Source: Agromyces protaetiae (lineage in GTDB: Bacteria; Actinomycetota; Actinomycetes; Actinomycetales; Microbacteriaceae). From it: 64,000 bases of DNA. Position 1 is the stretch's first letter; each line of letters opens with the position of its first letter. The notes under the pieces are model-generated. The model had not been told where the DNA came from. It worked only from the letters and a program-made list of their open reading frames with translations, and did not search any database. Positions 1-64,000 of this stretch are shown piece after piece. The stretch covers positions 620,001-684,000 of the forward strand of contig NZ_CP035491.1 of the NCBI RefSeq assembly GCF_004135405.1, given 5' to 3'. A program made the translations under genes and the position numbers.

Positions 1-730
1 ACCCGCTCAGGATCTCGCCGCTCACCTTCGAGTTGGCGAGGTAGCCGCCCGACGCCTGCTCGCCGTAGCGGCCCATCAACGTGAGGCTGCCCTCGATGTT
101 GATTCGGCGGAGCGGAGCGGCCTGGGAGACTGCGAACCGCATCTGGTGCGCGTTCGTGACGCCGCTCTGGTTGTTCGGGCGGTCGGCGTCGACGCCGACC
201 GGGCGCTGGATCGGGTTGAACGTGAGGTTCGACATCGATCGCCAGAACCGCGTGAGCGAGCCGGGGGCCTGGCAGTCCCACGGGGTCGCTTCGCACGCGC
301 GCACGGGCTCGACGTGGATCGAGCCGTTGATGCGCACGTCCTCGGGCGAGGCGCCGAGGCCGGCGACGGCCTGGTAGTACCCGAGTTCGGAGTTGACGAT
401 ATCGGTCGCCGTCGCCGGGTTGTTCTGTCCTGCCGCCGAGCCGTAGGTGCCCGGCTTGAAGAAGAACTGGTGGCGGTTGAGGCTGAACTCCGCCTCTTGC
501 GACGCCGCCTGGAGGGCCGCGCTGATCTCGTCGGCGGTCCAGGTGTCGTCGAAGATCGTGACGTTCGGACCGAAGAGGTCCGAGTCGTCTGCGGCGGCCG
601 GGAGTGCGGGAATGGCTGCGCCTCCGATCGCGAGGGCGGTGATCGCCGCTCCGGCGCCGAGGCGGCGCGCGAGGCGGTGGGGCGGATGGTTCGAAGCGAG
701 CGGATGCCTCGCCTCATTGCGGTGCGTCAC
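1..730 (-). CDS. Secreted beta-helix-type protein, N-terminal part (runs off the window)
   Basis: The reading frame starts at a GTG at 730, seven bases after a good Shine-Dalgarno (AAAGGAGA), and stays open to base 1, so the C-terminus is outside the window. Residues about 15-45 form a signal peptide: arginines, a hydrophobic core, then an Ala-rich cleavage site before DDSDLFG. The mature start (FGPNVTIFDD, later FFFKPGTYGS, YYQAVAGLGASPEDV and RFAVSQAAPLRRINI) matches, from memory, a family of actinobacterial and fungal secreted proteins often labelled 'adenylyl cyclase' or 'coagulation factor 5/8 type', which have a pectate-lyase-like parallel beta-helix and usually C-terminal carbohydrate-binding domains. 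An extracellular polysaccharide-related role is inferred; no catalytic residues are visible here. The upstream operator-like palindrome suggests regulated, sugar-responsive expression. Confidence 0.7.
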   Translation of the reverse strand, partial: MTHRNEARHPLASNHPPHRLARRLGAGAAITALAIGGAAIPALPAAADDSDLFGPNVTIFDDTWTADEISAALQAASQEAEFSLNRHQFFFKPGTYGSAAGQNNPATATDIVNSELGYYQAVAGLGASPEDVRINGSIHVEPVRACEATPWDCQAPGSLTRFWRSMSNLTFNPIQRPVGVDADRPNNQSGVTNAHQMRFAVSQAAPLRRINIEGSLTLMGRYGEQASGGYLANSKVSGEILSG

Positions 731-842
731 GGTGTTCTCCTTTGAACGTCGTCGCCGGGAGCGCTTCTCGCGTCGCCCGGCAACTGCTTCCGGATGGTGC
801 GTGGTGCACGCCCGACGCCTCCTTCGGCGCGGTCGCACGGGG

Positions 843-874
843 AGCGTAGCGTTAACTTACTAACTTGTCAGTAA
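843..874 (-). promoter_or_regulatory. Promoter and operator-like palindrome for the secreted beta-helix protein
   Basis: Read on the minus strand there is a -35-like CTGACA (866-871), a 17-base spacer and a -10-like TACGCT (843-848). An imperfect inverted repeat with TTACT/AGTAA arms (857-874) covers the -35 end, and AGTTA is repeated inside the spacer. This is an AT-rich island in GC-rich DNA, as expected for the site of a repressor of sugar-utilisation genes. The regulator is not encoded nearby. The rest of 731-1003 holds nothing else I recognise except the -10 box of the next gene. Confidence 0.45.
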
Positions 875-991
875 TTTGCCGCAAACGAGAAAACGGTCCG
901 TTTCACCCCCGCATGGGTGGCACCCGTTCGGGAGGATTCCTTCCATCCCGGAGGAGGCTCCGCCGCGTCATCCGGCGCCCTCGTCACCGTC

Positions 992-997
992 TACGCT
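992..997 (+). promoter_or_regulatory. -10 box for a leaderless transcript
   Basis: TACGCT ends six bases before the ATG at 1004 and there is no Shine-Dalgarno sequence. Transcription would begin at or next to the start codon. This supports the ATG at 1004 over an in-frame upstream ATG at 917. Confidence 0.5.
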
Positions 998-1003
998 CAT
1001 TGG

Positions 1004-2595
1004 ATGTCCCACCTGACCCCTGCCGATCACGACGTCGTGATCGTCGGCGGCGGCCACAACGGCCTCACCGCCGCCGCGTACCTCGCCCGCGCCGGACTCG
1101 ACGTCCTCCTCCTCGAACGCAGCGACCACCTGGGCGGCGCGGCCGTCTCGGCCGAGGCGTTCGACGGCGTCGAGGCCCGCCTGTCGCGCTACTCGTACCT
1201 CGTGAGCCTGCTCCCGAAGCGGATCATCGACGACCTCGGCCTCGACATCTCACTCGTGCGACGTCGGTACTCGTCGTTCACGCCCGACCCCGCCGACCCG
1301 TCGCGCGGCCTCCTCGTCGACAACGAGGCCGGCCCCGAGGCATCCGTCGCCGCCTTCGACCGCGTCGATGCGGCGATCGACGCCGACGCCTGGAACGCGT
1401 TCTACGGCGACACCGTGCGGATCGCCGAAGCGCTCTTCCCGACCCTCACCGAGCCGCTGCCGACACGCGACGAGGCGCGCGCCCTCGTCGGCGACGACCG
1501 CATCTGGCGCGAGTTCGTCGAGCAGCCCATCGGCGAGGCGATCGACGAGCGGTTCTCGACCGACCTCGTGCGCGGCGTCGTCGCGACCGACGCCCTCATC
1601 GGCACGTTCGCGGGCCTCGGCGACGCGTCGCTCGACCAGAACCGCTGCTTCCTGTACCACGTCATCGGGGCGGGACCGGCGACTGGGACGTCCCCGTCGG
1701 CGGCATGGGCGCCGTCAGCGGCGAACTCGCGCGCGCGGCCCGCGAGGCGGGCGCGACCCTCGTGACGGGCGCCACTGTCACCCTGGTCTCGCCCGACGGC
1801 GAGGTGCGGTGGCAGGGCGAAGACGGCGAGCGGATGTCGCGTGCCGACACGATCCTCGTCAACGCGGCGCCGACGGTGCTCGACGGGCTCCTCGCCGCTT
1901 CCGCCGACTCGTCGGCCACGACCGCTCGCCCCGAAGGCGCCCAGGTCAAGGTCAACCTGCTCCTGAACCGCCTGCCGAAGCTCCGCGACGAGACCGTCGC
2001 GCCCGAAGCCGCGTTCGCCGGCACGTTCCACATCAACGAGCTCGCAACGCAGCTCGAGCACGCGCACGACGCCGCCGCGGCGGGCGAGCTGCCCGACCCG
2101 CTGCCGTGCGAGATCTACTGCCATACGCTGAGCGACCGCACCATTCTCGGCCCGTCGCTCCGCGACACCGAGACCCAGACGCTCACGGTGTTCGGGCTGC
2201 ACGTGCCCGACCGGCTCGTCGACCGCTACGGCAACGACGAACTGCGCGAGCGGCTGCAGGCGGCGGTGCTGGCATCCCTGAACTCGGTGCTCGCCGAGCC
2301 CATCGAAGGCATCTTGGCAACGGATGCCTCGGGCAACCCGTGCATCGAGACGAAGACGACGCGCGACCTCGAGGAGGCGCTCGCCATGCCGGGCGGCAAC
2401 ATCTTCCACGGGTCGCTGTCGTGGCCGTGGGCGGAGCCGGGCCAGGCGCTCGCGACCCCCGCCGAACGGTGGGGCGTCGCGACGGCGCACACGCGGATCC
2501 TCCTGTGCGGATCGGGCGCCGTGCGCGGCGGGGCGGTCAGCGGCCTCGGCGGCCACAACGCGGCGATGGCCGTGCTCGAGGCCCGCGGGGCCTGA
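1004..2595 (+). CDS. PYROXD2-like NAD(P)/FAD-dependent oxidoreductase (frameshifted)
   Basis: The product is a flavoprotein of the phytoene-desaturase-like superfamily, nearest the PYROXD2 branch; the substrate is unknown. The N-terminus has a dinucleotide-binding Rossmann motif ([21 protein letters not shown]) followed by an acidic residue and LGGAA, and the C-terminus has the FAD-contacting [18 protein letters not shown] segment. The frame is intact from 1004 to about 1667, then continues one frame over to 2595. Adding one G in the run at 1667-1674 restores [21 protein letters not shown] and gives a normal 530-residue protein. The lesion is a missing base, probably a sequencing undercall. 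No carotenoid genes are nearby, so crtI is not a good name. The gene converges on doxX across a 56-bp palindrome. Confidence 0.8.
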
Positions 2596-2627
2596 CCGGG
2601 GTCCCCCTTCCCGAAGAATCCCTACCC

Positions 2628-2683
2628 GTGAGGACGTCAACCGGGGAAACTCGCGCTCGCGAATCCCAGGTTGGCGTCCTCAC
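2628..2683. repeat. 56-bp palindromic repeat, family B copy 1
   Basis: The unit opens with GTGAGGACGTCAACC and closes with GGTTGGCGTCCTCAC, so its 15-base arms pair with one mismatch around a 26-base centre. It lies between the convergent ends of the flavoprotein and doxX genes. Two more copies of exactly the same length are at 13161 and 14287. It could act as a bidirectional terminator. Confidence 0.8.
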
Positions 2684-2704
2684 GCGCGCCGGGGAGTCGC
2701 GCGG

Positions 2705-3064
2705 TCAGCCGAAGATGATCCAGCCCGAGCCGACGACGGCCGCGAACACGCCGAGGACGGCGGCGGGCACGAACGGCTCCTTGCGGCGCACGTGGATCGC
2801 GACGCCCACGATCATCGTGACGACGAGCGCGAACGCGGCGACGGGCGTGAGCCACGGCAGGACGCCCGTCGCGGCGGGCAGGACGAGCCCGAGCGCGCCG
2901 AGCACTTCGAGGACGCCGACGACGCGGGCCTGCCCGTCCGACAGGTCTTCCATGTACGCCATCTTGGGCAGGAGCTTCTCGCGCGGCGTGGACGCCTTCA
3001 TGAAGCCGGCGGCGAGGAAGGCGAGGGCGAGGAGCGCGGTGGCGATCCAGAGCACGATGATCAT
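2705..3064 (-). CDS. DoxX family membrane protein
   Basis: This 119-residue protein has four hydrophobic segments (about 1-20, 47-67, 70-90 and 98-118). The first ends AAGFMKASTPREKL, typical of the DoxX family of small integral membrane proteins, some linked to thiol or oxidative stress functions. The ATG at 3064 follows GGAG at a suitable distance. It is divergent from an HxlR-type regulator, a common pairing for DoxX and oxidoreductase genes, so redox- or electrophile-responsive control by that regulator is likely but inferred. Confidence 0.8.
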   Translation of the reverse strand: MIIVLWIATALLALAFLAAGFMKASTPREKLLPKMAYMEDLSDGQARVVGVLEVLGALGLVLPAATGVLPWLTPVAAFALVVTMIVGVAIHVRRKEPFVPAAVLGVFAAVVGSGWIIFG

Positions 3065-3098
3065 GGGGTACTCCAGGGATGTTTCGGGTCAGTCGGTT

Positions 3099-3126
3099 AC
3101 GATCAGTGCGTCAGGCACGATCAGTG
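3099..3126. promoter_or_regulatory. Direct-repeat operator candidate between doxX and hxlR
   Basis: ACGATCAGTG occurs twice (3099-3108 and 3117-3126), 18 bases apart start to start, in the 136-bp divergent intergenic region. Such spacing suits a dimeric winged-helix regulator, and the neighbouring HxlR protein is the obvious candidate. No other copy was noticed in the window. Confidence 0.5.
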
Positions 3127-3200
3127 ACTCTATGTCACGGATGCCTCGCACTTCACCGTGCGTCACGCACCTCCAGGTGCGTATCGCGAAAGGACGCCCC

Positions 3201-3614
3201 ATGACTCTGACGGATGCCTCGCGCCACCCCTTCTCCGACCACCCGCATGCCCCCGCCTCGACGTGCAGCGCGGAGCATCCCGAGAGCACCGTCATCCGCG
3301 ACGTCCTCTCGCGACTCGGCGACAAGTGGAGCCTCCTCGTCATCGGACTCCTGCACGACCGGTCACTGCGCTTCACCGAGCTGCAGCGCCGCATCGACGG
3401 CATCTCGCACCGCATGCTCACCCAGACGCTCCGCAGCCTCGAGCGCGACGGGCTCGTCTCGCGCACGAGCTATCCCGAGATCCCGCCGCGCGTCGAGTAC
3501 GCGGCGACCCCGCTCGGCCGCTCGCTCGCCGAGCCCGTGCTCGGCCTCGTCGGCTGGGCCGCCGAGCACCATGCCGAGATCGACGCGGCGCGCGAGGCCT
3601 ACGACGGCGCCTGA
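3201..3614 (+). CDS. HxlR family transcriptional regulator
   Basis: The 137-residue protein has the HxlR winged helix across about residues 30-125. Typical landmarks are LSRLGDKWSLLVIGLL, RFTELQRRIDGISHRMLTQTLR and LERDGLVSR. A Cys near residue 24 (STCSAEHP) precedes the fold, at the position that often senses redox state or electrophiles in this family. The ATG at 3201 lies eight bases after AAAGGACG. It is divergent from doxX, with paired direct repeats between them, suggesting control of doxX and itself. Confidence 0.88.
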   Translation: MTLTDASRHPFSDHPHAPASTCSAEHPESTVIRDVLSRLGDKWSLLVIGLLHDRSLRFTELQRRIDGISHRMLTQTLRSLERDGLVSRTSYPEIPPRVEYAATPLGRSLAEPVLGLVGWAAEHHAEIDAAREAYDGA

Positions 3615-3625
3615 GCGCGAGGAGC

Positions 3626-3988
3626 TCAGAAGACGAACACCTGCCCGAGCACGACGATCGCGACGACGAAGAGGGCGACGATCGCTCCCACGACGATGAT
3701 GCTCCGCGCCGAGAGTTTCGCGACCGCGAACCCGACGAGGAACGGCAGCGCTGCGAGCAGCAACGTCACGATCCACCAGAACGCGACGTAGCCTCCGGGG
3801 TCCATCTCCGAAAGCCGTTCGCCGAAGAGCTGTTGCGACCGCGGATGCGTCGCGAACGAGAACGACGCCGACAGCGGAACCGCGATGAGCGCCGCGACGA
3901 TCACCCCCGCGAGCGCGCCCCACAGCCCCGTCTTGCTCTCGACGACGCCACCCTGATCCGACCCGACTTGCTTGCCGCCCGAAGCCAT
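3626..3988 (-). CDS. Small integral membrane protein, function unknown
   Basis: The 120-residue protein has a short polar N-terminus and three or four transmembrane segments (about 20-44, 67-85 and 93-118) with a periplasmic-type loop (THPRSQQLFGERLSEMDPGG) between the first two. I do not recognise a named family. The start at 3988 is supported by a -10 box (TAGAGT) six bases upstream and no Shine-Dalgarno. It converges on hxlR with only 11 bases between stop codons. Confidence 0.65.
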   Translation of the reverse strand: MASGGKQVGSDQGGVVESKTGLWGALAGVIVAALIAVPLSASFSFATHPRSQQLFGERLSEMDPGGYVAFWWIVTLLLAALPFLVGFAVAKLSARSIIVVGAIVALFVVAIVVLGQVFVF

Positions 3989-3994
3989 GCCCCG

Positions 3995-4000
3995 ACTCTA
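3995..4000 (-). promoter_or_regulatory. -10 box for a leaderless transcript
   Basis: On the minus strand TAGAGT ends six bases before the ATG at 3988, with no Shine-Dalgarno. It fits the leaderless pattern seen at about a dozen genes in this window. Confidence 0.5.
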
Positions 4001-4056
4001 GCCCTGCCATGCACGACGGGATTAGCCTGAGAGCCACGGACGACTGGGGGGTCACG

Positions 4057-4566
4057 ATGGGTGCGAAACCGACCGGGCACTACCTGCTGAAGGCCGACGG
4101 CCTGTACCTCCAGTTCGACCGGCTGTTCCGTGCGCCGATCGAGGACGTCTGGTTCAGCCTGACGAACCCGGGCTTCCTCGAGCGCTGGATCGGCACCTAC
4201 ACGGGTCTGCCGTCGACGGGAGCGGTGCGGTTCAAGATGACGGCCGAAGACCCGGATGCCCCGTGGATGAACGTTTCCATTCTCGAGTGCGAAGCGCCGC
4301 ACCGTTTCAGCCTCGACATCGGCGAGATGCCCGATTCGATGCGCCTCTCGGCCCACCTCCTCGAGGCCGGCGGCATGACGACGCTTTCGTTCGCGCACCG
4401 GCTCCACGACGCCAAGCAGGCCGTCGAGTACGGGCCGGGGTGGGACTACTACCTCGACCGGCTCGACGCCGCGCGCGAAGACCGCCCCTTGCCCGACTGG
4501 GAGGCGTACGCCTCGGCGTTCGATCGCCACTACAAAGAACTCCACGTTCCCGATGCCGTCAGCTGA
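4057..4566 (+). CDS. SRPBCC (AHSA1-like) domain protein
   Basis: This is a 169-residue protein of the START/Bet v1-like SRPBCC superfamily. It opens its domain with FDRLFRAPIEDVWFSLTNPG and has the usual later FSLDIGEMPDSMRLSAHL strand region and a long C-terminal helix. These proteins bind hydrophobic ligands or act as Hsp90-cochaperone-like modules; the ligand is unknown. I prefer the ATG at 4057, preceded by a G-rich Shine-Dalgarno (GGGGGG), over one at 4009 that sits inside the divergent promoter region. Its last 14 bases overlap the next gene, so the two are probably translationally coupled. Confidence 0.75.
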   Translation: MGAKPTGHYLLKADGLYLQFDRLFRAPIEDVWFSLTNPGFLERWIGTYTGLPSTGAVRFKMTAEDPDAPWMNVSILECEAPHRFSLDIGEMPDSMRLSAHLLEAGGMTTLSFAHRLHDAKQAVEYGPGWDYYLDRLDAAREDRPLPDWEAYASAFDRHYKELHVPDAVS

Positions 4567-5722
4567 TCCCGTGGACTCCGCCCCCCAGCACGACGCCGAC
4601 CCCGCCGAGCACGACGCCCCCGCGCCCGCCTCAGCACCCGCGCCGGCGCCCGCACCCGCGCCCGATGAGCCGCACCGATCGCTCTTCGCCCACCGGCCGC
4701 TCCAGTGGGGGTTCGTGGTCACGCTCGGCGTGCTGCTCGCGCTCGCCGTCGGCATCGCGTTCGTCAATCTGCAGTCGGTCGTGCTGTCGGTGTTCATCGC
4801 GGCGTTCGTGGCGCTCGGGCTCGACCCGCTCATCCGGTGGTTCCAGCGGCGCGGACTCCGCCGGGGCACGGCGATCGTCGTCGTCATCCTGCTGTTCGTC
4901 GCCGTCGTCATCGGGATCATCTGGATCGTCATCCCGCCGGTCGTGAATCAGGCGTTCGGGCTCGTGCAGTCGATCCCCGAGCTCGTGAACCGCGTCGAGG
5001 CATCCGGATGGTTCGACAGCGCGAACGCCGCAACCAACGGGCTGCTCGGCAACCTCGTGACCGGCCTCGAGGGCATCATCACCGACCCGAACCTGTGGGC
5101 GACGATCGGCGGCAACGCGCTCGCCTTCGGCGCGTCGGTCATCAACGCGGTCTCGACGGGGTTCTTCGTCGTCGTGCTGTCGATCTACTTCATCGCGACG
5201 CTCGACTCCATCAAGCAGGCCTGCTACTCGCTCGTGAAGGCGTCGCACCGTGAGACGATCTCGGGCTACGCCGAGCGGATCATGCAATCGGTCGGCAAGT
5301 ACCTGAGCGGCATGGTCGTGCTCGCCTTCATGAACGCCGTGTTCTCGACGATCCTGCTCGCGATCGTAGGCGTGCCGTTCGCGCTCGTCATCGGCGTCGT
5401 CGCGCTCTTCGTGACCCTGATCCCGCTCATCGGAACCGTGCTCACGACCATCCTCATGACGATCGTGTCGCTCTTCGTCTCGCCCGTCGCGGCGCTCATC
5501 GTGCTCGCGATCATGCTCGTCTACATGCAGGTCGAGGCGTACGTGTTCACCCCGCGGATCATGGGCAAGGCCGTGCAGGTGCCGGGCACGATCGTCCTCA
5601 TCTCCGCCCTCGCGGGCGGCACCCTGCTCGGGCTCCTCGGCGCGCTCGTCGCGATCCCGATCTCGGCGGGCATCCTGCTCATCATCCGCGAGGTCGTGAT
5701 CCCGCGGCAGGCGCGGGCGTAA
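4553..5722 (+). CDS. AI-2E family transporter (PerM/YdiK-like)
   Basis: The 389-residue membrane protein starts with about 45 Pro/Ala/Asp-rich residues, then has paired N-terminal transmembrane segments, a periplasmic stretch (SIPELVNRVEASG) and a C-terminal bundle with the family's hallmark region (IPLIGTVLTTI, then VEAYVFTPRIMGKAVQVPG). Members export diverse small molecules or run as antiporters; the substrate here cannot be read. The ATG at 4553 overlaps the end of the SRPBCC gene; GTG at 4570 is an alternative. Downstream is a palindromic repeat shared with the convergent exporter gene. Confidence 0.88.
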   Translation: MPSADPVDSAPQHDADPAEHDAPAPASAPAPAPAPAPDEPHRSLFAHRPLQWGFVVTLGVLLALAVGIAFVNLQSVVLSVFIAAFVALGLDPLIRWFQRRGLRRGTAIVVVILLFVAVVIGIIWIVIPPVVNQAFGLVQSIPELVNRVEASGWFDSANAATNGLLGNLVTGLEGIITDPNLWATIGGNALAFGASVINAVSTGFFVVVLSIYFIATLDSIKQACYSLVKASHRETISGYAERIMQSVGKYLSGMVVLAFMNAVFSTILLAIVGVPFALVIGVVALFVTLIPLIGTVLTTILMTIVSLFVSPVAALIVLAIMLVYMQVEAYVFTPRIMGKAVQVPGTIVLISALAGGTLLGLLGALVAIPISAGILLIIREVVIPRQARA

Positions 5723-7377: not shown

Positions 7378-7997
7378 GCGTGCAGACGAAATCCGATCGG
7401 ATCCCCGCGGCCGAGCGGCGCGAGCTGATCCTCGACGCCGCCACCCAGGTCTTCGGCGAGCTCGGCTACGCGGGCGCCACGACCGACCGCGTCGCACGCG
7501 CCGCAGGCATCAGCCAGCCCTACGTCGTGCGCATGTTCGGCACGAAAGAGCAGCTCTTCATCGAGGTGCTCGAGCGTTCGACCGCGCAGATCCTCGCAAC
7601 CTTCGACGCCGAGATCGCCGCCTACGACGCGGCCTCACCCGACGACCGCACAGGCTACGGCCAGTCGCTCCAGGCCCGGCTCGGCGGCGCGTACACCCGG
7701 CTCGTGCAGACGCACCGAGGCATCCTTCTCGCCCTCATGCAGGGCTTCCTGCTCGGCCACGACTCGGGCATCGGCCCCGTCGCGCGCGAATGCTTCATGC
7801 GCGTCTACGACCGCCTGCGCGACGTCATGGACGCCCAGGGCACCATGGACTTCATGGCGCAGGGCATGCTCATCAACACCCTCATCGCCTCGGGGCTCAC
7901 CGCGCGGGTGCGGACCGACAGCAAAGTCGGCGAACTCTTCGAATGCGCCTTCGGCGACAAGGCGAAGCTCGTCGTCGCGAGCGTCGAAGGCGACTGA
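7371..7997 (+). CDS. TetR/AcrR family repressor of the adjacent exporter
   Basis: The 208-residue protein has an N-terminal TetR helix-turn-helix (about residues 15-60: RRELILDAATQVFGELG, then ATTDRVARAAGISQPYVVRMF) and a helical ligand-binding C-terminus. The ATG at 7371 directly abuts operator 2; a GTG at 7380 is an alternative. Neither has a Shine-Dalgarno, and TAGTAA at 7353-7358 would suit a leaderless transcript. The divergent exporter and two matching palindromes make it almost certainly the repressor of that transporter. The ligand is unknown. Confidence 0.9.
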   Translation: MSSVQTKSDRIPAAERRELILDAATQVFGELGYAGATTDRVARAAGISQPYVVRMFGTKEQLFIEVLERSTAQILATFDAEIAAYDAASPDDRTGYGQSLQARLGGAYTRLVQTHRGILLALMQGFLLGHDSGIGPVARECFMRVYDRLRDVMDAQGTMDFMAQGMLINTLIASGLTARVRTDSKVGELFECAFGDKAKLVVASVEGD

Positions 7998-8579: not shown

Positions 8580-8710
8580 GTGCACGCGTTGACTGTACGA
8601 GGCATCCGTGAATCCGGATCGATCGTTGGCGGAACACCACAAGAACGCGGGCGGATGTCTCGCGCGCACGTTGTGCGCATCGACGAATGCCCTCCGGGGT
8701 CTCCGGTTCG

Positions 8711-11700: not shown

Positions 11701-11790
11701 CGGGCTCGCCGCCTGCGGCTCGCCGCCCTCGCCTCCCGGCGCGGCCGTCCGGGGCGTGAGCGGGCGCATGTGACGAGCGGATGCACGCAT
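8711..11790 (-). CDS. Large secreted protein with Cna-B/carboxypeptidase-like and Ig-like repeats (frameshifted)
   Basis: The ATG at 11790 follows GGAGG. A long charged N-terminus leads into a signal peptide (IVAVFALVATAVAGGS, cleavage after PAWA near residue 60). The N-terminal half has prealbumin-like/Cna-B folds (SGVVTIEGPDGPPAEGV, DGGWEFSGLPAADYRVRF). The C-terminal half has about four Ig-like repeats with the recurring pattern Y-E-W-x-R-x-G and V-R-V-T-x-x-x-P-G-Y/F. No sorting signal or membrane anchor follows, so it is probably released or loosely wall-bound. The frame switches at the G5 run 10628-10632; one added base restores EEPEPPEASVSLLVV and a 1026-residue protein. Function unknown; an adhesive or structural surface role is inferred. 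Confidence 0.75.
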
Positions 11791-11905
11791 GGGATCCTCC
11801 GAAGGAGGCCCCGGTCGGGCGTCGGGCCACGTCGACCGCTGAGCGGACAGTACTCCGAGGCATCCGACCGCCGTGGCCCCCGAAGAGGGGCGAAATGGGA
11901 GCGCT

Positions 11906-21390: not shown

Positions 21391-21438
21391 GCCGTGCGCG
21401 CGGCCCGCGCCCCGAGGCATCCGCTCAGCCCGCCCTCG

Positions 21439-50830: not shown

Positions 50831-50956
50831 CCCCGCCCCGAGGCTGCGCTTCCGCGCGGCCCGCAGCGGCATGCCCGGTCCGGGCTTCCTGAACGCCCCG
50901 AGGGGCGTCTGAACGAACACGAGACACATGCGGGCGCAGCCCGCGGAGAGACATCC

Positions 50957-51503: not shown

Positions 51504-52145
51504 TCACTCCCAGAGCGGTCGCACAGCGGCCCGCGCAGCGACGATCGCGTCGCCGTCGAGGGGCACGGCGGATGCCTCGAACTCCTCATCGCGCCACTCG
51601 GACACGAGTCGGCACTCGCCGCCGGGGAATTCGGGCCACCACACCCAGAGCCCGCCGGTCAGGCGGTAGAGGCGGTCGCTCCCGCCGCCGCCGCCATGGC
51701 GCGGCATCGCGGTCGGCGGGGTCGGGGCGTCGTTCGGGTCCGAGTCGGGGCCGTAGGCAGCGCGCATCGTCCCGAACCCCACAGCGGGCACTTTCTCGCC
51801 GCCAGGGCCGACGATGCCGAAGCGCGGGCCGCCGCCCTCCTCACCCCCGAAGAACGCGGCCCGTCCGTGAGCACGTCGCTGCCACTCGGACACGCTCTCG
51901 TCGCGGCGGCGCAGCACCCAGTCCACGACGACCTCGAACCCCGTCGAATAGACGCCGATCTCGCGCAGCACGAGCGTCGCCCGCTCGCTGCGCGCGATCG
52001 TGCGGTCGAGCAGCACTCGCCCCGGCACCTCGTCTTCGGGCGCCTGGCCCCACTGCGGCACGCGGTACGGCTCGGCCTCTTCGATCGCTCGGCGTCTCCG
52101 TTCGGCGTCTTCCTCGTCGAAGAACCCCGGTTCGCTGGTCTGCAT
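51504..52145 (-). CDS. Hypothetical protein
   Basis: The 213-residue soluble protein has no signal peptide or transmembrane segment. It has an acidic N-terminus, a beta-rich core (TLVLREIGVYSTGFEVVVDWVLRR), a Gly-rich loop (HGGGGGSDRLYRLTGGLWVWWPEFPGG) and a C-terminal helix. I do not recognise the family; similar unnamed proteins occur in actinobacteria in my recollection. The ATG at 52145 has TATCCT seven bases upstream, a leaderless arrangement. Confidence 0.7.
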   Translation of the reverse strand: MQTSEPGFFDEEDAERRRRAIEEAEPYRVPQWGQAPEDEVPGRVLLDRTIARSERATLVLREIGVYSTGFEVVVDWVLRRRDESVSEWQRRAHGRAAFFGGEEGGGPRFGIVGPGGEKVPAVGFGTMRAAYGPDSDPNDAPTPPTAMPRHGGGGGSDRLYRLTGGLWVWWPEFPGGECRLVSEWRDEEFEASAVPLDGDAIVAARAAVRPLWE

Positions 52146-54246: not shown

Positions 54247-55716
54247 TCAGGATGCCGCGGCCACGAGCTCCTCGTCCTCGGCGGGCGCCGGGGCGTGGTG
54301 GCCGTGGCCCACGGCCATGCCCGGCGTGAACTTCGCGGGGATCGTCACGGCGATGAGCGCGGCGGCGACCGCGACGCCGCACCCGATGAGCAGGCCCGTG
54401 CGGAAGCCGTCCTCCGTGGCGATCGTGTAGCCGCCGAGGTCGACGCTCATCGCTGCGAGCACGGCGCCGACGACGGCCGAGGAGATCGAGGACCCGATCG
54501 AACGCATGAGCGAGTTGACGCCGTTCGCCGAACCCGTCTCGCTGCGCGGCACGGCGCCCATGATGAGCGACGGCATGGCGCCGTAGGCGAACGCGACGCC
54601 CGCGCTCGCGACGACCGACGTCACGAGCAGACCCCACAGCGACCCCATGAAGAGGGCGGACGACCCGTACCCGATCGCCATGACGATGCCGCCGACGATG
54701 AGGGTCGTCTTGGGGCCGCGCGCGGCCGAGATCTTCGCACCGACGGGCGAGACGAGCATCATCGCGATGCCCGCGGGCGCCATCCAGAAGCCCATCTGCA
54801 GCATCGTCTGTCCGAGGCCGTAGCCCGTCTCGACCGGGAGCTGCATGAGCTGCGGGATGATGAGCGACTGCGCGAACATCGCGAAGCCGACGACGATCGA
54901 GGCGAGGTTCGTGAGCAGCACCTGGGGGCGGGCGGTCACGCGCAGGTCGACGAGGGGTGCAGGCGTGCGGAGTTCCCACCAGCCCCACGCGAGGGCGACG
55001 ACGACCGCGACGACGAACATCGTGATGGTGGTCGCACTGCCCCAGCCCCAGCTCGCGCCCTTCGAGATGGCGAGCAGCAGGGCGACGAGCACGACGCTCA
55101 ACCCGACGGTGCCCACGGGGTCGAACTTGCCCTTCGCGAGCGGCTTCGTCGCGGGGATGATCCAGAGGATCGCGGCACCGCACAGGGCGGAGATGACGGC
55201 GACCGCCCAGAACAGGATGCGCCAGTCGGTGTACTGGGCGACGGCCGCCGCGACGGGGAGGCCGATCGCACCGCCGATTCCCATCGACGAGCTCATGAGG
55301 GCGATGCCCGAGCCGACCCGGTCGGCGGGCAGAAGGTCGCGCAGCACGCTGATGCCGAGCGGCACGATGCCCGTCGCAAGGCCTTGGAGGGCGCGGCCGA
55401 CGATCATCCACTCGATCGAGCCCGAGAGGGCGGCGATGACCGAGCCGGCGATGAGCGGGATGAGCGCGACGAGCATGATCTTGCGCTTGCCGTAGAGGTC
55501 GCCGAGGCGGCCGGTGAGCGGGGTCGCGACGGCGCCCGCGAGCAGGGTCGCGGTGACGGCCCAGGCGGTGGTCGAGGCATCCGTGTGGAAGATCTGCGGG
55601 AGCTGGCCGAGGATCGGCACGACGATGGTCGCCGTCAGCGAGACGACGATGCCGGCGAGGGCCAGCACGGTGATGAGCACGCCGGGGCGTGGCTGGGTGG
55701 ATGCAGACGTGCGCAT
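54247..55716 (-). CDS. DHA2-type MFS drug exporter
   Basis: The 489-residue protein has about 14 hydrophobic segments, with [19 protein letters not shown] in TM1, the loop motif [19 protein letters not shown] and a motif-C-like [15 protein letters not shown]. The His-rich tail ([14 protein letters not shown]) is unusual. It should export drugs or metabolites with protons. The ATG at 55716 follows AAGGAGG. It is divergent from a MarR regulator across 195 bp with two repeat elements, so local control is likely. Confidence 0.9.
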
Positions 55717-55804: not shown

Positions 55805-55842
55805 TCAGGATGCCTCGAGCCGACGCCGCACGCAGCCGTCGG

Positions 55843-56428: not shown

Positions 56429-57817
56429 CTACTCCGCCGGCAGCAGCGACTCGGGCCCGAGTTCGTGGACCGACGTGTGCCCCGCGAGCCCGAGCGTGAG
56501 GTCGAACTCGGCGATCGTGTTGCGCACGACCTCGCTCACCCCGGTCGCTCCGGCGATCGCGAGTCCGTAGGCGTAGGGCCGTCCGAGGCCGACGGCGGTC
56601 GCCCCGAGCGCGAGGGCGATCGCGACATCGGCACCGCCCCGCACGCCCGAGTCGAGGATGATCGGCGCGCGCCCCGCAACCCGTTCGACGACGGCGGGCA
56701 GTGCTTCGAGCGTCGGCACCGAGCGATCGATCTGCCGCCCGCCGTGGTTCGAGACCACGACACCGTCCATGCCGGTGTCGATCGCGCGCGACGCGTCGTC
56801 GGGATGCACGACGCCCTTCAGCAGCACGGGCAGGTCGGTCCACTCGCGCACGCGCGCGATGCCCTCCCAGCTCAAGGATGCGTCGGAGAACACGTCGAGG
56901 AACGTCTCGACCGCGGCCCGCGGAAGCGGCGAGCGCATCGCCCGCCCCACACCTCCGCCGTCGACGAGCGCCGACCCCGCCGCCTGGCGCGCGATGCCGA
57001 CGGCGGTGCGTACGGCCTTCGGCGTCACGCGCACGGGCGCGGCCGGCGCGGCGGGTCGAGCCGCCTCCGCAGACAGCGGCCTCGTGACATCCGACCCGTC
57101 TGTGACATCGCCACCCGAGGTGACCTTCGCGTGCCGCACGCGCTCGCGCACGAGCTGCGCGAACACGGGGTCGCTCGTGTACTGGGCGATGCCCTGCCCG
57201 CGCGTGAACGGCAGGAAGGCGAGATCGAGGTCGCGCGTGCGCCAGCCGAGCAGATGGGTGTCGAGGGTGATGACGATGGCTTCGCAGCCGGATGCCTCGG
57301 CGCGCGCGATGAGCGAACGGTTGAGGTCGTCCGACGACGACCAGTACAGCTGGAACCACCGCGACGCCGAGCCCATCGCCGACGCGACCTCCTCCATGGG
57401 CCGCGAAGCCTGATTCGAGAGGATGTACGGCACGTCGAGGGCCGCCGCTGCACGCCCGACCGCGATGTCGGCGTCGGGGTGCGCGAGACTCATGACGCCG
57501 AGCGGCGAGAGGAGGAGCGGCGTCGCCCGGCGCTTGCCGAGGAGCTCGATCGACAGGTCGCGCTCGGCGACATCCCGAAGCACCCGAGGGTAGATGCGCC
57601 ACTTCGCGAACGCCCCCGTATTGGCCGCCATCGTGTGCTCGCTGCCCGCACCTCCCGCGAGGTACGCGAACGCGTCGGCCGGGAGCGCGCGCTTCGCGCC
57701 CTGCTCGAGCCCCGCGAACGTCGTCGGCACGGCGGGCTTCTCGCCGCTCACCCCCGCCCGGTAGACGGCGGACTGCACCCCGCGCGCGAATCCTCGCGAC
57801 GTGTCGATGCGGCTCAT
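56429..57817 (-). CDS. FMN-dependent alpha-hydroxy-acid oxidising enzyme (lactate 2-monooxygenase-like)
   Basis: The 462-residue protein has the TIM-barrel FMN fold of the lactate oxidase family: LLLSPLGVMSLAHPDADIAVGRAAA, the active-site Tyr/Asp in WFQLYWSS and TLDTHLLGWRTRDLDL, the catalytic His in VVSNHGGRQID and FMN-phosphate loop DSGVRGGADVAIALALGATAVGLGRPY. Length and N-terminus fit lactate 2-monooxygenase. Residues about 225-285 hold an Ala/Pro-rich, poorly conserved insertion at the loop 4 region, which governs access to the site. The ATG at 57817 follows GAGGAGG. Confidence 0.88.
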   Translation of the reverse strand: MSRIDTSRGFARGVQSAVYRAGVSGEKPAVPTTFAGLEQGAKRALPADAFAYLAGGAGSEHTMAANTGAFAKWRIYPRVLRDVAERDLSIELLGKRRATPLLLSPLGVMSLAHPDADIAVGRAAAALDVPYILSNQASRPMEEVASAMGSASRWFQLYWSSSDDLNRSLIARAEASGCEAIVITLDTHLLGWRTRDLDLAFLPFTRGQGIAQYTSDPVFAQLVRERVRHAKVTSGGDVTDGSDVTRPLSAEAARPAAPAAPVRVTPKAVRTAVGIARQAAGSALVDGGGVGRAMRSPLPRAAVETFLDVFSDASLSWEGIARVREWTDLPVLLKGVVHPDDASRAIDTGMDGVVVSNHGGRQIDRSVPTLEALPAVVERVAGRAPIILDSGVRGGADVAIALALGATAVGLGRPYAYGLAIAGATGVSEVVRNTIAEFDLTLGLAGHTSVHELGPESLLPAE

Positions 57818-57885: not shown

Positions 57886-58629
57886 ATGGGACGGCGGGGG
57901 CTCGCGCGCAAGCTGCGGTGGCTCGTCGTCGACTACGCGTACGCGTCGTGGCGGCAGCTCGCCGTGTTCGGCGCAGCGCTCACGGGCGCGAGGACGCCGC
58001 GTGCGTGGGGGTCGGGCGACGACTCCCGCCCGTCGCTCCCCGAGGTCGTGCTCGTGCCGGGCGTGTACGAGCACTGGGCGTTCCTCCGCCCGCTCGGCGA
58101 CCGCCTGAACCGCGCGGGCCACCGCGTACGCGTCGTGCACGGGCTCGGCGTGAACCGTCGGCCCGTCGACGAGACGGCGGCGAAGCTCGCGCGGGCCCTC
58201 GCGCGCACTCGCGCTCCCGCCGCCGGTCGCGTCATCGTCGCGCACTCGAAGGGCGGGCTGATCGGCAAGCGGGCGCTCATCGATGCTTCGGATGCCTCGG
58301 GGCTCGCCCTGCTCGGCGTCGTCGCGATCTGCACCCCGTTCGGCGGCTCGCCGCGCGCACGGCTCCTCGCCGACCCGAGCATCCGCGCGTTCCTCCCCGA
58401 CGACCCGACGATCGCGGCGCTCCGCGCCGCCACGGGCGTCGACCGCCGGATCGTGTCGGTGTTCGGCACGTTCGACCCGCACATCCCGGGCGGGAGCGCA
58501 CTCGAAGGCGCCGCCGCGAATCTCGAGGTTCCCGTCGCGGGGCATTTCAGGCCGCTCGGCTCACCGGCCACGGCAGACGCCGTGCTCGCGGGAATCGCGC
58601 GGCTCGAGGCATCCGCCCCTGTCGGCTGA
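57886..58629 (+). CDS. Alpha/beta hydrolase, lipase-like
   Basis: The 247-residue protein has the alpha/beta hydrolase core: VVLVPGVYEHWAFLRPLGDRL with the oxyanion-hole region, the nucleophile elbow HSKGG (Ser near residue 121), an Asp in FGTFDPHIPGGSAL and a late His (VAGHFRPLG). The elbow H-S-K-G-G and following ICTPFGGS resemble bacterial lipase/PGAP1-like esterases. There is no signal peptide. The substrate is unknown. It converges on the serine hydrolase gene across a family D palindrome. Confidence 0.85.
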   Translation: MGRRGLARKLRWLVVDYAYASWRQLAVFGAALTGARTPRAWGSGDDSRPSLPEVVLVPGVYEHWAFLRPLGDRLNRAGHRVRVVHGLGVNRRPVDETAAKLARALARTRAPAAGRVIVAHSKGGLIGKRALIDASDASGLALLGVVAICTPFGGSPRARLLADPSIRAFLPDDPTIAALRAATGVDRRIVSVFGTFDPHIPGGSALEGAAANLEVPVAGHFRPLGSPATADAVLAGIARLEASAPVG

Positions 58630-59782: not shown

Positions 59783-61783
59783 TTACCAGATGGTCACGCG
59801 CTCGGCCGGATCGAGCCAGAGCGCGTCACCTTCGGCGACCCCGAACCCAGCATAGAACTCGTCGATGTTGCGAACGATCTGGTTGCATCGGAACTCGCTG
59901 GGAGAGTGCGGGTCGATCGCGAGCAGACGGATCGCCTCCTCGTCGCGGAGCTTCAACTGCCAGGCCTGCGCCCACGAGAGGAAGAACCGCTCGACGGCCG
60001 TGAGGCCGTCGATGACGGGCGCGTTCGACACGTCGCCGCCCTGCGAGATGACGTACGCCTTCCACGCGATCGCGAGGCCGCCGAGGTCGCCGATGTTCTC
60101 GCCGATCGTGAGGGCGCCGTTGACGTGGGGCGGTTCGGATGTCTCGTCCGCGAGTTGCAGCGGCACGAGCGCGTCGTACTGCGCGATGAGCGCCTTCGTG
60201 CGGTCCTCGAACGCCGCCCGGTCGGCCTCGGTCCACCAGTCGGTGAGGCGGCCGTCGCCGTCGTACTTCGATCCCTGGTCGTCGAAGCCGTGGCCGATCT
60301 CGTGCCCGATGACGGCGCCGATCGCGCCGTAGTTCGCGGCGGCGTCGCGGTCGGCGTCGAAGAACGGGAACTGGAGGATGGCGGCCGGGAACACGATCTC
60401 GTTGAAGCCCGGGTTGTAGTACGCGTTGATCGTCTGCGGCGTCATGAACCACTCGTCGCGGTCGATGGGCTTGCCGATCTTGCCGAGCTCGCGGTTGAAC
60501 TCGAACTCGGCGGTGGCGCGCACGTTGGCGATGAGGTCGCCCGGCGTGATCTCGAGCTTCGAGTAGTCGCGCCACTTGACCGGGTAGCCGATCTTCGGCG
60601 TGAACTTCGCGAGCTTGTCGAGCGCCTTCGCCCGCGTCTCTTCGCCCATCCAGTCGAGCTGCGAGATCGACTGCCGGTACGCCTCGACGAGGTTCGCGAC
60701 GAGGTCGTCCATCTCCTCCTTCGCGGCGGGCGGGAAGTGCCGCTCGACGTAGATCCGGCCGACGGCCTCGCCCATCGCGCCCTCGACGAGCGAGACGCCC
60801 CGCTTCCACCGCTCGCGCATCTGCGGGGTGCCCGTGAGGGTGCGACCGTAGAAGTCGAAGTTCGCCTCGACGAGATCGGTCGAGAGGTACGCGGCCGACG
60901 AGCGGATGATCTGCCACGCAAGCCAGTCGCGCCAGGCCGGCAGGCGGTCTTCGGTGAGGAGCGCGCCGAGGCCCGCGAGGAACGACGGCTGCCGCACGAC
61001 GAGCTCGGCGAACGCGCCCTCGGGCACGCCCATGGCGTCGCGCCAGCCGTCGAGGTCGAGCGGCGTCTCGCGCGACCTCGAGAGCCCGGCCGAGACATCC
61101 GCCCAGCTCTTCAGGTTGTAGGTCTTCTCGCTGTCACGCGACTCGACGTTCGTCCAGTGCGTCGCCGCGATCTCCTTCTCGAGACCGAACACGCGTTCGG
61201 CGCGCGCCGCCGCTTCGTCGAGCTTCGCGAGGCCGAACATGCGCTCGAGGTGCGCGCGGTAGGCCTCGCGCACCGACTCGAAGCGCTCTTCGCGGAAGTA
61301 GCTCTCGTCGGGCAGGCCGATGCCGCCCTGCTCGACGAACACGAGGTAGCGCTCGGGGTCGCCCGGGTCGTTGTCGACGAACAGCTGCGCGAAGCCCGCG
61401 ATGCCGAGTCGCTCGAGGCGCCCGGTCGTCTCGAGCAGCCTCGCGACGGAGTCGACGGCGGATGCCTCGGCGAGCTGCGGCTCGATGGGGGTCACGCCGA
61501 GCGCGTCGGCCCGCTGCTCGTCCATGAAGCTCGCGTAGAGGTCGCCGACCTTGCGCGCCTCGGTGCCCTCCTCGGCCTGCTGCGACTCGACGATGATCTC
61601 GCGCACGGCCTTCTCGGCCTCTTCGTGCAACTCGATGAACGAGCCGTAGCGCGCCTTGTCGGCCGGGATCTCGGTGCGAGCGATCCACTTGCCGTTGACG
61701 TGCCGGAAGAGGTCGTCCTGGGCGCGCACAGTGGGGTCGAGCTCGTCGAGGCGGATGCCCGAGGGGAGGGTGGCGTCGGTCAT
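59783..61783 (-). CDS. M13 family zinc endopeptidase (neprilysin-like)
   Basis: The 666-residue protein has the gluzincin motif HEIGHGFDDQG near residue 492, the third zinc ligand and neighbours in GENIGDLGG (near 558), the substrate-binding NAYYNP and the C-terminal SEFRCNQIVRNIDEFYAGFGV. This is PepO/neprilysin-type. There is no signal peptide, so it is probably cytoplasmic, like actinobacterial homologues. The ATG at 61783 has TAGTCT five bases upstream. Confidence 0.94.
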   Translation of the reverse strand: MTDATLPSGIRLDELDPTVRAQDDLFRHVNGKWIARTEIPADKARYGSFIELHEEAEKAVREIIVESQQAEEGTEARKVGDLYASFMDEQRADALGVTPIEPQLAEASAVDSVARLLETTGRLERLGIAGFAQLFVDNDPGDPERYLVFVEQGGIGLPDESYFREERFESVREAYRAHLERMFGLAKLDEAAARAERVFGLEKEIAATHWTNVESRDSEKTYNLKSWADVSAGLSRSRETPLDLDGWRDAMGVPEGAFAELVVRQPSFLAGLGALLTEDRLPAWRDWLAWQIIRSSAAYLSTDLVEANFDFYGRTLTGTPQMRERWKRGVSLVEGAMGEAVGRIYVERHFPPAAKEEMDDLVANLVEAYRQSISQLDWMGEETRAKALDKLAKFTPKIGYPVKWRDYSKLEITPGDLIANVRATAEFEFNRELGKIGKPIDRDEWFMTPQTINAYYNPGFNEIVFPAAILQFPFFDADRDAAANYGAIGAVIGHEIGHGFDDQGSKYDGDGRLTDWWTEADRAAFEDRTKALIAQYDALVPLQLADETSEPPHVNGALTIGENIGDLGGLAIAWKAYVISQGGDVSNAPVIDGLTAVERFFLSWAQAWQLKLRDEEAIRLLAIDPHSPSEFRCNQIVRNIDEFYAGFGVAEGDALWLDPAERVTIW

Positions 61784-61788: not shown

Positions 61789-61794
61789 AGACTA
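61789..61794 (-). promoter_or_regulatory. -10 box for leaderless M13 peptidase gene
   Basis: On the minus strand TAGTCT ends five bases before the ATG at 61783, with no Shine-Dalgarno. Confidence 0.45.
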
Positions 61795-61837
61795 CGCATG
61801 GCGCGCACCCATCGGGTGCGGTTGGATGGAACCCGAT

Positions 61838-62212
61838 ATGAAGACGCTGCTCAACATCATCTGGCTCGTGCTCGCCGGCCTCTGGCTGTGGATCGGGTAC
61901 GCGATCGCGGGTGTCGTCATGTGCATCCTCATCGTGACCATCCCGTGGGGCATCGCTGCGTTCCGCATCGCCGGCTACGCGATCTGGCCGTTCGGCCGCC
62001 AGGTCGTGTCGAAGCCGACGTCGGGCGCGTGGTCGTTCCTCGGCAACGTCGTGTGGGTGCTCCTCGCGGGCTGGTGGCTCGCGCTCGAGCATCTGCTCAC
62101 GGGGCTCGTGCTCTGCCTCACGATCATCGGCATCCCGCTCGGCATCGCGAACTTCAAGCTCATCCCGGTCTCGCTCGCCCCGCTCGGCAAAGAGATCGTC
62201 GACAAGCCTTGA
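61838..62212 (+). CDS. YccF domain membrane protein
   Basis: The 124-residue protein is two tandem YccF (DUF307) units, each a pair of transmembrane segments ending in the family motif: IPWGIAAFRIAGYAIWPFGR in the first and IGIPLGIANFKLIPVSLAPLGK in the second. Function unknown. The ATG at 61838 gives the family N-terminus MKTLLNIIWLVL; another in-frame ATG is at 61826. Its stop shares one base with the next gene's ATG. Confidence 0.92.
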   Translation: MKTLLNIIWLVLAGLWLWIGYAIAGVVMCILIVTIPWGIAAFRIAGYAIWPFGRQVVSKPTSGAWSFLGNVVWVLLAGWWLALEHLLTGLVLCLTIIGIPLGIANFKLIPVSLAPLGKEIVDKP

Positions 62213-62868
62213 TGCAGACGATCCAGCTCGGCGGCTTCGCCCAGTCCCCCGGCATGACCGCGCTGTTCGGCGTTGGGCTCGGCGGCCTCCTGCTCATCCC
62301 TGCGGTGCTGCTCACCGACATCCGCTGGCTCATCGCGGGGCTCATCGCGATCCCGACGCTGATCGTGGCGATCGCCGTCCTGCTCGCCGCGGTCTACCCC
62401 AGGGTGGACGCCGACTTCGCGACCGGCACGGTGCGCATCCGCTCCAAGACGGTGCCGATCGCCTCGATCACGCGCGTGACCCGCAGCCTCTCGACCGCCC
62501 GCACTCGCGGGGCTCAACTGCATCGCGCGACCACGGGCACGACGGAGGAGCACGGGTACGTCCGCGGCCGCTACCTCGAGTACCGTCTGCAGTCGACGAC
62601 CGGCGCGACGGCTCGCGTCCTCGTCACCGGCACGCCCTTCAGCGGCATCACGGCCCAAGGTGCGGCGGTGCTGCACCATCTGATCGGCTCGGCGCCGATC
62701 GCCGAGCCGATCGACCCCGACGGGCGGCCGATCCCTCCCGAAGCTCAGGCCGTCCCCGACGGGCGCTTCACGACCGGTCGGCCTCACTTCGTCGGCCGCG
62801 CATTCCTGCTCCACGAGCTCGCGACGGCGCATGGGCTCGTCCCGACGGGAGTCACCGGCCCCGCCTAG
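62212..62868 (+). CDS. Membrane protein of unknown function with PH-like domain
   Basis: The 218-residue protein has two transmembrane segments (about 16-35 and 39-62) followed by a soluble beta-rich domain (VDADFATGTVRIRSKTVPIASITRVTRSL, YLEYRLQSTTGATARVLV). The layout resembles the membrane-plus-PH-like proteins at 46293 and 30298. I do not recognise a named family. It is translationally coupled to the YccF gene by a one-base overlap. Confidence 0.68.
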   Translation: MQTIQLGGFAQSPGMTALFGVGLGGLLLIPAVLLTDIRWLIAGLIAIPTLIVAIAVLLAAVYPRVDADFATGTVRIRSKTVPIASITRVTRSLSTARTRGAQLHRATTGTTEEHGYVRGRYLEYRLQSTTGATARVLVTGTPFSGITAQGAAVLHHLIGSAPIAEPIDPDGRPIPPEAQAVPDGRFTTGRPHFVGRAFLLHELATAHGLVPTGVTGPA

Positions 62869-62875
62869 GCTCGGA

Positions 62876-64000
62876 GTCATCGACATCAGAGCCACGCCCT
62901 CCGACTCCGCCGCCGACCGGCGCGCGGTCGATCGCGACATCCTGCGGCTCGCCGTGCCCGCGCTCGGCGCGCTCATCGCCGAGCCGCTCTTCCTGCTCGC
63001 CGACACGGCGATGGTGGGGCACCTGGGCGCGGTGCCGCTCGCGGGGCTCGGGCTCGCGGCGGCGATCCTGCAGACGATCATCGGGCTCATGGTGTTCCTC
63101 GCCTACGCGACGACCCCGGCCGTCGCGCGTCGGCTCGGCGCGGGCGACGAGCGGGGCGCGGTCGCGGCGGGCATCGACGGACTCTGGCTCGCACTCGGCA
63201 TCGGCATCGTGCTCGCGGTCGCGGGGTGGTTCGCGAGCCCCTGGCTCGTCGGGGCGTTCGGAGCGACCGAGGATGTCTCGGCCGAGGCATCCACCTATCT
63301 GTCGATCTCGATGGCGGGGCTGCCCGCGATGCTGCTCGTGTTCGCGGCCACCGGGCTCCTCCGCGGCCTGCAAGACACGCGCACGCCGCTGTGGGTCGCC
63401 GGCATCGGGTTCGGCGTCAACATCGTGCTCAATTGCGTGTTCATCTACGTCGCGGGCTGGGGCCTCGCGGGGTCGGCGACGGGCACCGTCATCGCACAGT
63501 GGGGCATGGTCGCCGTGTACCTCGCAGTCGTCTGGCGGCACGCCGCGCGCGCAGGCGCGAGCCCGTGGCCGCACCACGCCGGCGTGCTGCGCGGGGCTGC
63601 ATCGGGCGGGTGGCTGTTCCTCCGCACGGCGAGCCTGCGGGTCGCGCTCCTCGTCGCGACGTGGTCGGCGACGGCGCTCGGGCCCGACGAGCTCGCGGCC
63701 TACCAGATCGTCATCTCGCTCTACTTCACGCTCGGCTTCGCACTCGACGCGCTCGCGATCGCGGCGCAGGCGCTCGTCGGTCGCGGGCTCGGAGCGGAGG
63801 ATGTCTCGCACGTGCGCGCCGTGCTCAAGCGGTGCCTGCAGTGGGGGCTCATCGCGGGTGCGGTCGCGGGCGTCGTCGTCATCGCGCTCGCGTGGGTGCT
63901 CCCCGCGCTCTTCACGTCGTCTGAAACCGTGCGGGCGATGCTGCCGCCCTCGCTCGTCGTGCTCGGGCTCTCCGCCCCGCTCGGCGGCGTCGTGTTCGTG
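62876..64000 (+). CDS. MATE family efflux transporter (DinF-like), 3' end outside window
   Basis: The open frame runs to the window end with MATE features: RDILRLAVPALGALIAEPLFLLADTAMVGHLG in TM1, LIQ-type loops (FAATGLLRGLQDTRTPLW) and about nine transmembrane segments in view. It should export cationic drugs with Na+ or H+. The start is unresolved: no ATG, GTG or TTG exists in frame between the previous gene and the conserved region; the first in-frame GTG falls inside LAVPALG and would lose the start of TM1. A base error near 62870-62900 is possible. The start given is only the left limit of the frame. Confidence 0.85.

Follow-up and report, generated by a model that had tools for sequence, protein, structure and literature searches.

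Short words that mark DNA for uptake have a proven function in two bacterial families, the Neisseriaceae and the Pasteurellaceae (see PMC1939737). The literature describes in Neisseria a DNA uptake sequence (DUS) with a strict CTG core (PMC3630211), which is highly conserved, lies in permissive regions, is absent from recently acquired genes and, in inverted pairs, acts as a terminator (PMC2397512); PMC6370729 was also among the papers cited in judging the word that we describe. That word, GGATGCCTC, was met in the actinobacterium Agromyces protaetiae, in a stretch of 64,000 nucleotides (the window: positions 620001-684000 of the single 3,683,091-bp contig, a 3.68-Mb chromosome). Together with its T-variant GGATGTCTC it forms part of an 11-bp motif, CGGATG[C/T]CTCG, which on balance we take to be a DUS maintained by natural transformation, a reading that the genome comparisons below make somewhat probable.

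Exact counting gave 21 copies of GGATGCCTC on the forward strand of the window and 24 on the reverse strand (read there as GAGGCATCC), in agreement with the total of about 45 that a first-pass annotation of the window had reached by eye. The same annotation had described a C or A on the 5′ side and a G on the 3′ side, as is the case for 40/45 and 42/45 copies respectively; its “more than a dozen” T-variants come to 18 copies of GGATGTCTC (13 forward, 5 reverse); and the two copies that it gave for the C-version, GGACGCCTC, are where it had placed them, at 25705 and 42603 on the complement (0+2). Copies also occur, as it had said, in genes of both orientations (33/45; 15 sense and 18 antisense) and in intergenic DNA or straddling a gene boundary (12/45).

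The excess is genome-wide. The whole chromosome holds 1734 copies of GGATGCCTC (888+846 on the two strands) against 4+4 copies of the reversed word. The comparison of all 9-mers with a Markov model, which the first-pass annotation had recommended, was run on a 464-kb sample of the chromosome, made up of the window and a further 20 stretches of 20 kb each at even spacing: under a third-order model 245 copies of GGATGCCTC were observed for 10.65 expected (23-fold), making it the top-scoring 9-mer of all, and GGATGTCTC was observed 132 times for 4.2 expected (31-fold). Scaled to the chromosome, the expectation for GGATGCCTC is about 85 copies. Of the 1818 9-mers found 40 times or more, the most enriched one free of overlap with the motif reached 4.6-fold. 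DUS and uptake signal sequences (USS) are marked by the extreme excess, on both strands and throughout the genome, of a word of 9-12 bp, and the Agromyces word bears this mark.

The 9-base word first noticed is thus real but too short. Information, taken relative to the codon null described below, extends over 11 positions, C-GGATG-[C/T]-C-T-C-G, and none that is clear was found outside these 11 bp. GGATG and the terminal C (and G) are strict, while words changed at position 1 or at one of the three in-between bases are themselves enriched 4- to 31-fold. Within GGATG 15 single changes are possible, and 12 of them do not exceed expectation, most with small numbers: the T5-to-C word was observed 5 times for 12.5 expected and the T5-to-G word twice for 8.75, and, with smaller counts, G2-to-C and A4-to-C once each for 3.5 and 3.0.

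Genes were taken from a home-made codon-usage caller, which found 423 in the sample; because it leaves long gaps (10604-11905 of the window, for example), some copies that we count as intergenic may be genic. When codons were shuffled synonymously 60 times, with all proteins and the total codon usage left unchanged, the genic copies of GGATGCCTC fell from 88 sense and 101 antisense (189) to 2.6+3.0 (5.6). Within genes the word is used in both orientations, chiefly in two frames, as Asp-Ala-Ser in sense and Glu-Ala-Ser in antisense, and, as had been suspected from the window, it forces rare codons: among the training genes, Asp is written as GAT in 12.8% of cases and Ala as GCA in 6.2%, and yet GAT is the Asp codon in 90/154 DAS against 221/1278 other Asp-Ala pairs, and GCA the Ala codon in 86/131 EAS against 30/969 other Glu-Ala pairs. 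Moreover the tripeptides that the word can encode, EAS, DVS, DAS and ETS, rank 1, 2, 3 and 8 of 7258. Since shuffling leaves so few copies, and since these tripeptides rank so high, something acts on the DNA word and not on the protein, which is what the first-pass annotation had argued; the DNA word appears to drag protein sequence along with it.

The C- and T-forms together give 377 sites in the sample, about one per 1.1-1.2 kb and in both orientations, with near-Poisson spacing (coefficient of variation 1.06). Between genes the density is 1.67/kb (85 sites in 50.98 kb), about 2.5 times the 0.68/kb found in genes; of the intergenic sites, 47 follow a stop codon and 25 precede a start at a distance of no more than 50 bp. 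Pairs within 60 bp are convergent in 15 cases and divergent in 5; seven of the 15 inverted pairs were inspected, and three of them (L028:2111, L013:10427 and L019:13934) are stems just past stop codons, the other four sitting inside genes. Close same-strand pairs are separated by exactly 9 bases in 9/19 cases, and the examples looked at lie inside called genes; these we read as putative repeats in protein linkers.

One long region is free of the word altogether. C1:2944001-2992000 (48 kb) holds no copy for 39 expected (P about 1e-17), with normal density on both sides, and spans a lower-GC region (0.62-0.70) with type I restriction genes. Its GC and gene content suggest recent arrival, and it is in this one region that depletion in recently acquired DNA was seen. 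The island proper, of about 43 kb (C1:2948000-2991000; stretches L025, L161 and L162), carries HsdR, HsdM and a helicase, together with a weak Schlafen/AlbA match below cut-off, and lacks the motif.

By glutamine synthetase, the closest named relatives of A. protaetiae are three Agromyces (91, 90 and 89% identity), which points to this genus of the Microbacteriaceae. How the word behaves between species was followed by aligning the window with five genomes of the same genus at 78-81% identity. Identical 9-mers face the sites in 12/42 cases in G079 (12.7% for flanking 9-mers), 8/37 in G240 (11.6%), 4/31 in G280 (8.2%), 2/28 in G142 (9.8%) and 2/21 in G194 (14.5%). The GGATG core alone is kept at 0.32-0.48 of sites in four genomes against 0.22-0.25 of matched flanks, and in G194 at 0.19 against 0.26. 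The sites lie in faster-changing sequence, flanking 9-mers being kept at 12.7% against a background of 22.1% in G079, and the remaining four genomes differ in the same sense. Judged by these alignments, single sites turn over fast between species. The suffix changes as well: A. protaetiae itself (G000) has 204 CCT and 101 TCT, G079 has 94 CCT and 43 CCG, and CCG leads in G142 (63, with 19 CCT) and in G280 (32, with 10 CCT). At several aligned places G142 or G280 has CGGATGCCGCG opposite CGGATGCCTCG of G000, so that a T faces a G in an otherwise intact word. By these counts and alignments, the suffix differences between Agromyces species are dialects around a strict CGGATG...C core.

The range of the word was surveyed in 299 Microbacteriaceae genomes drawn evenly from a larger group, with one genome for each of 85 genera where genera are counted. 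Copies per genome run from 0 to 1734 for the exact 9-mer and from 8 to 4093 for the core CGGATGCC. Because the reversed word is an imperfect control, giving ratios of up to 3.8 in other families, we set the threshold at no less than 5-fold: 46/85 genera reach it and 12/85 stay below 2-fold. In the g52 genomes G051 and G121 the core is depleted (43 copies for 115 of the control, and 44 for 114). Outside the family, the ratios read by eye in 148 genomes from 18 further families of the order all stayed below 4 and lay mostly between 1 and 2.5. Of 80 named loci, nine had at least 6 cores and at least three times the expectation, all from Microbacteriaceae genera: three from Agromyces, one each from Cryobacterium, Mycetocola, Microcella, Herbiconiux and Salinibacterium, and one from a metagenome-assembled genome (MAG) named as Frigoribacterium. 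Within the same 80, the core was not enriched at two Leucobacter loci, in Frigoribacterium faeni or in Frigoribacterium sp. MEB024. A search of the open literature (titles and abstract starts, with preprints and most subscription journals outside its range) gave no description of an uptake word in Actinomycetota among the matches listed; for the word string itself, none of the matches listed is titled as a study of a bacterial genome word, and the string probably stems from primers.

We propose that CGGATG[C/T]CTCG would serve as a short self tag that is preferred during uptake of free DNA. Fragments bearing the word would enter the cell more often and then recombine into the chromosome, and this uptake drive could spread and maintain the word genome-wide, each single copy being dispensable and free to turn over. 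Uptake would then have to discriminate by the word, and its reader may be a surface protein or a protein of the Tad pilus. The genome has an intact-looking uptake apparatus: ComEA (with SLBB and helix-hairpin-helix domains), ComEC, two Tad loci and a type IVa pilus locus. Predicted ComEA and ComEC thus provide natural transformation genes in a carrier of the word; both score above Pfam cut-offs and below those of NCBIfam (77.6 of 152.35 and 154.1 of 190.05 bits respectively). Natural transformation is documented in two other Microbacteriaceae (PMC11577799), and Tad pili serve transformation in another actinobacterium, Micrococcus luteus (PMC4322843).

Several observations weigh against this proposal. 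ComEC, found in 293/299 family genomes, is near-universal and does not discriminate motif-rich from motif-poor genomes. In a comparison of ten genomes of each kind, ComEA was found in 9/10 motif-rich (in G106 none was found beside comEC) and 10/10 motif-poor genomes, and no residue separating the two groups was seen by eye. G079, G142, G240, G280 and five g58 genomes lack PilT, showing weak Tad-like matches instead. No receptor has been identified: type IVa pilin-like genes are present in G000, and no counterpart of ComP, the minor pilin that reads DUS, was found. The literature search found no uptake experiment in Agromyces. The two species proven to be transformable come from small-genome lineages, and the MAG loci of Aurantimicrobium and Aquiluna, which we take to stand for them, hold 3 cores for 1.0 expected and 1 for 0.6, little or no enrichment. 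Lastly, single copies are only moderately conserved, more so than their flanks in G079, G240 and G280 and less so in G142 and G194, and are less conserved between species than the DUS of Neisseria.

The type IVa pilus deserves separate consideration. The locus in A. protaetiae (C1:1487860-1500591; L056 and L057) looks complete, with PilB, PilT, PilC, the major pilin, three further pilin-like genes, PilD, PilM, PilN and PilO, of which the names PilC, PilD, PilM, PilN and PilO are our own reading. Judged by PilT, this locus is lacking in 4/5 of the same-genus genomes. PilT scores above cut-off in 146/299 family genomes, and G142 and G057, which have more copies of the core than any other of the 299, are among those that lack it. 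The type IVa pilus was therefore rejected as the general reader, the word being strongest where PilT is absent, unless the word long outlives loss of the pilus; the pilin-like genes of G000 are likewise unlikely to encode a general reader, because motif-rich relatives have no PilT. Even so, some association between PilT and the word is present and could not be explained away: the 5-fold ratio is reached by 32/46 PilT-positive against 14/39 PilT-negative genera (Fisher P 0.002, uncorrected for phylogeny). The reader would more likely be a Tad pilus or a surface protein than the type IVa pilus. The wider proposal, in which monoderm Actinomycetota possess a sequence-specific self-recognition for DNA uptake, through a word that has spread over the whole family Microbacteriaceae, with lineage dialects and a receptor other than a type IVa pilin (perhaps a protein of the Tad/Flp pilus or of the cell surface), and has reshaped codon choice and tripeptide use, we hold to be evenly balanced between right and wrong.

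The alternative that survives best needs no function at all. In it, an orphan DNA methyltransferase would be coupled to a drive of repair or mutation, and mismatch repair or methylation would steadily turn near-matches into the word, after the model put forward for HIP1 (highly iterated palindrome 1, GCGATCGC) of cyanobacteria, which resembles the Agromyces word in its extreme excess, strict core and variable outer bases; a strict core, tolerant outer bases and depleted core near-misses could arise from such a ratchet too (PMC4390886). A candidate enzyme exists in A. protaetiae, a 299-aa orphan beta-class adenine methyltransferase of family PF01555 (C1:559026-559925; L012:7026-7925, reverse strand), whose nearest solved structures are RsrI and CcrM. 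Counterparts 64-85% identical are present in 19 of 20 other Microbacteriaceae genomes aligned, a g52 genome alone missing it. In a survey of 45 genomes picked by eye (29 motif-rich and 16 motif-poor), strong PF01555 counterparts (E 1e-40 or better) occur in 43, the two exceptions being the g52 genomes G051 and G121, in which the core word is depleted. Against this stands the presence of the same methyltransferase (64-79% identical) in 8 of the 9 aligned genomes that are poor in the motif (observed/control ratios 0.6-2.4), because of which it is not sufficient for the word. Methyltransferases of the D12 family are absent from all five Agromyces searched, and none of three families tracks the word across the 45 genomes: PF01555 has matches in all 45, PF02086 (D12) in 7 (3 motif-rich, 4 motif-poor) and PF00145 (C5) in 21 (15 motif-rich, 6 motif-poor). 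HIP1, moreover, is palindromic and linked to core-specific methyltransferases, whereas the Agromyces word is neither a palindrome nor tracked by a conserved methyltransferase. We consider an origin of this sort unlikely.

A somewhat smaller chance, low in itself, falls to the idea that the word is bound by a chromosome-organising protein and tolerated anywhere as long as its density is kept. Its near-Poisson spread over the genome in both orientations, and the turnover of single sites, would both fit such a role. The concentration between genes, close after stop and before start codons, the 48-kb stretch with no copy and the many genera of the family that manage without (the 12 of 85 below 2-fold) do not, and we know of no bacterial organiser with an asymmetric site so long and so abundant. 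A protein-binding word in the broad sense, one of the options of the first-pass annotation, is possible, and it takes in the DUS model too.

That annotation had further suggested a Chi- or KOPS-like signal (KOPS, FtsK-orienting polar sequences) and a footprint of cytosine deamination, and neither fared well. Chi and KOPS are likewise short, asymmetric and over-represented words, but they are oriented along the replichores. The Agromyces word is not: the check for skew about origin and terminus that had been proposed, run on the 377 sampled sites over a grid of origin/terminus splits, gave a maximum bias of 31 for a mean of 43.4 in 60 shuffles, and the strand totals over the chromosome (above) are nearly equal. 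Because orientation is without replichore bias, a polar recombination or segregation signal is not supported; we regard it as disfavoured and very improbable. Conversion of GGACGCC to GGATGCC by a cytosine methyltransferase is disfavoured too, and slightly more improbable again. The scarcity of the C-version that had been noticed in the window would fit it: in genes the two C-versions number 3+8 for 19.4+10.7 expected under codon shuffling and 6+2 for 17.8+5.4. Together, however, they number 19 for 53 expected, and this deficit of about 34 cannot feed the excess of about 271 in the T-versions (281 in genes for 10 expected); the G-for-T, G2-to-C and A4-to-C words are depleted too; and of the five Agromyces searched, G000, G079 and G280 gave no match to the C5 family PF00145, though G240 has one and G142 a weak one. 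Least credible of all, and likewise disfavoured, is an artefact of common peptides with ordinary codon choice: the genic word does lie mainly in two frames, but it collapses when codons are shuffled with proteins fixed, takes GCA in EAS far more than in other Glu-Ala pairs, and is denser between genes than inside them.

Within the window, GGATGCCTC lies on the forward strand at 702-710, 2322-2330, 3139-3147, 3212-3220, 10619-10627, 16018-16026, 16878-16886, 19012-19020, 20138-20146, 21094-21102, 22266-22274, 25488-25496, 26659-26667, 32528-32536, 38535-38543, 38905-38913, 51570-51578, 55808-55816, 57290-57298, 58290-58298 and 61460-61468, and on the reverse strand at 1337-1345, 4997-5005, 7717-7725, 8599-8607, 10302-10310, 11857-11865, 15770-15778, 17323-17331, 19301-19309, 21229-21237, 21414-21422, 21901-21909, 23722-23730, 26598-26606, 29077-29085, 32875-32883, 37271-37279, 43062-43070, 48555-48563, 48732-48740, 48954-48962, 55574-55582, 58606-58614 and 63284-63292. 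The GGATGTCTC variant lies on the forward strand at 8653-8661, 13066-13074, 19617-19625, 23094-23102, 25641-25649, 28617-28625, 28665-28673, 34895-34903, 41333-41341, 47688-47696, 60137-60145, 63271-63279 and 63799-63807, and on the reverse strand at 34059-34067, 39360-39368, 40243-40251, 50948-50956 and 61092-61100. All are exact matches. In the aligned genomes of the genus, the copy at 22266 is an identical 9-mer in 4/4 genomes aligned there, that at 1337 in G079 and G240, and that at 8599 in G079; CGGATGCCGCG faces the copies at 2322 (a dialect form) and 19012 in G142, and that at 20138 in both G142 and G280, with several changes there in G079 and G240. The variant at 60137 is GGATGCCTC in G079 and G240. 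The variant at 63271 and the copy at 63284 are inverted partners separated by a 4-base loop.

A second over-represented word, TGTCCGACAAA, is much rarer, with 14 copies in the 464-kb sample for 0.01 expected. In G240, stretches L042-L044 hold 8 copies of TTCACGTGAAA in 60 kb, again for 0.01 expected; these are, by their motif, probably parS sites.

Should the word prove to tag DNA for uptake, self-tagging in Gram-positive Actinomycetota would suggest an independent origin with a different receptor, and adding an 11-mer to DNA would offer a simple genetic handle on a large bacterial family from soil and plants. The motif-rich and motif-poor genera, with their dialects, would then form a natural experiment for finding the receptor. 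Even without uptake, a word that makes EAS, DVS and DAS the top three tripeptides of the sampled proteome demands explanation.

Compared with the proven uptake words, the Agromyces word occupies a different setting. Monoderm actinobacteria are without an outer membrane, and USS carry flexible AT-rich flanks. The Agromyces word differs from USS in sequence and lineage and in having no information outside its 11 bp, and from DUS in its GGATG-core sequence, its GC-rich monoderm host, the apparent dispensability of type IVa pili and the want of a ComP counterpart. With the USS of the Pasteurellaceae it nevertheless shares a 9-bp core word of very high copy number, spread genome-wide (PMC1626085, PMC1939737). 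The likeness to the DUS of the Neisseriaceae, which is read by ComP, goes further: both are asymmetric words of 10-12 bp in thousands of copies, and the strict GGATG and terminal C(G) around a tolerant middle are reminiscent of the CTG core of Neisseria. In both, moreover, related genera use dialects that share a short and strict core, with some genomes of the family going without (PMC3630211, PMC2397512), and in both the word forms inverted, terminator-like pairs, favours permissive places and is absent from recently acquired DNA.

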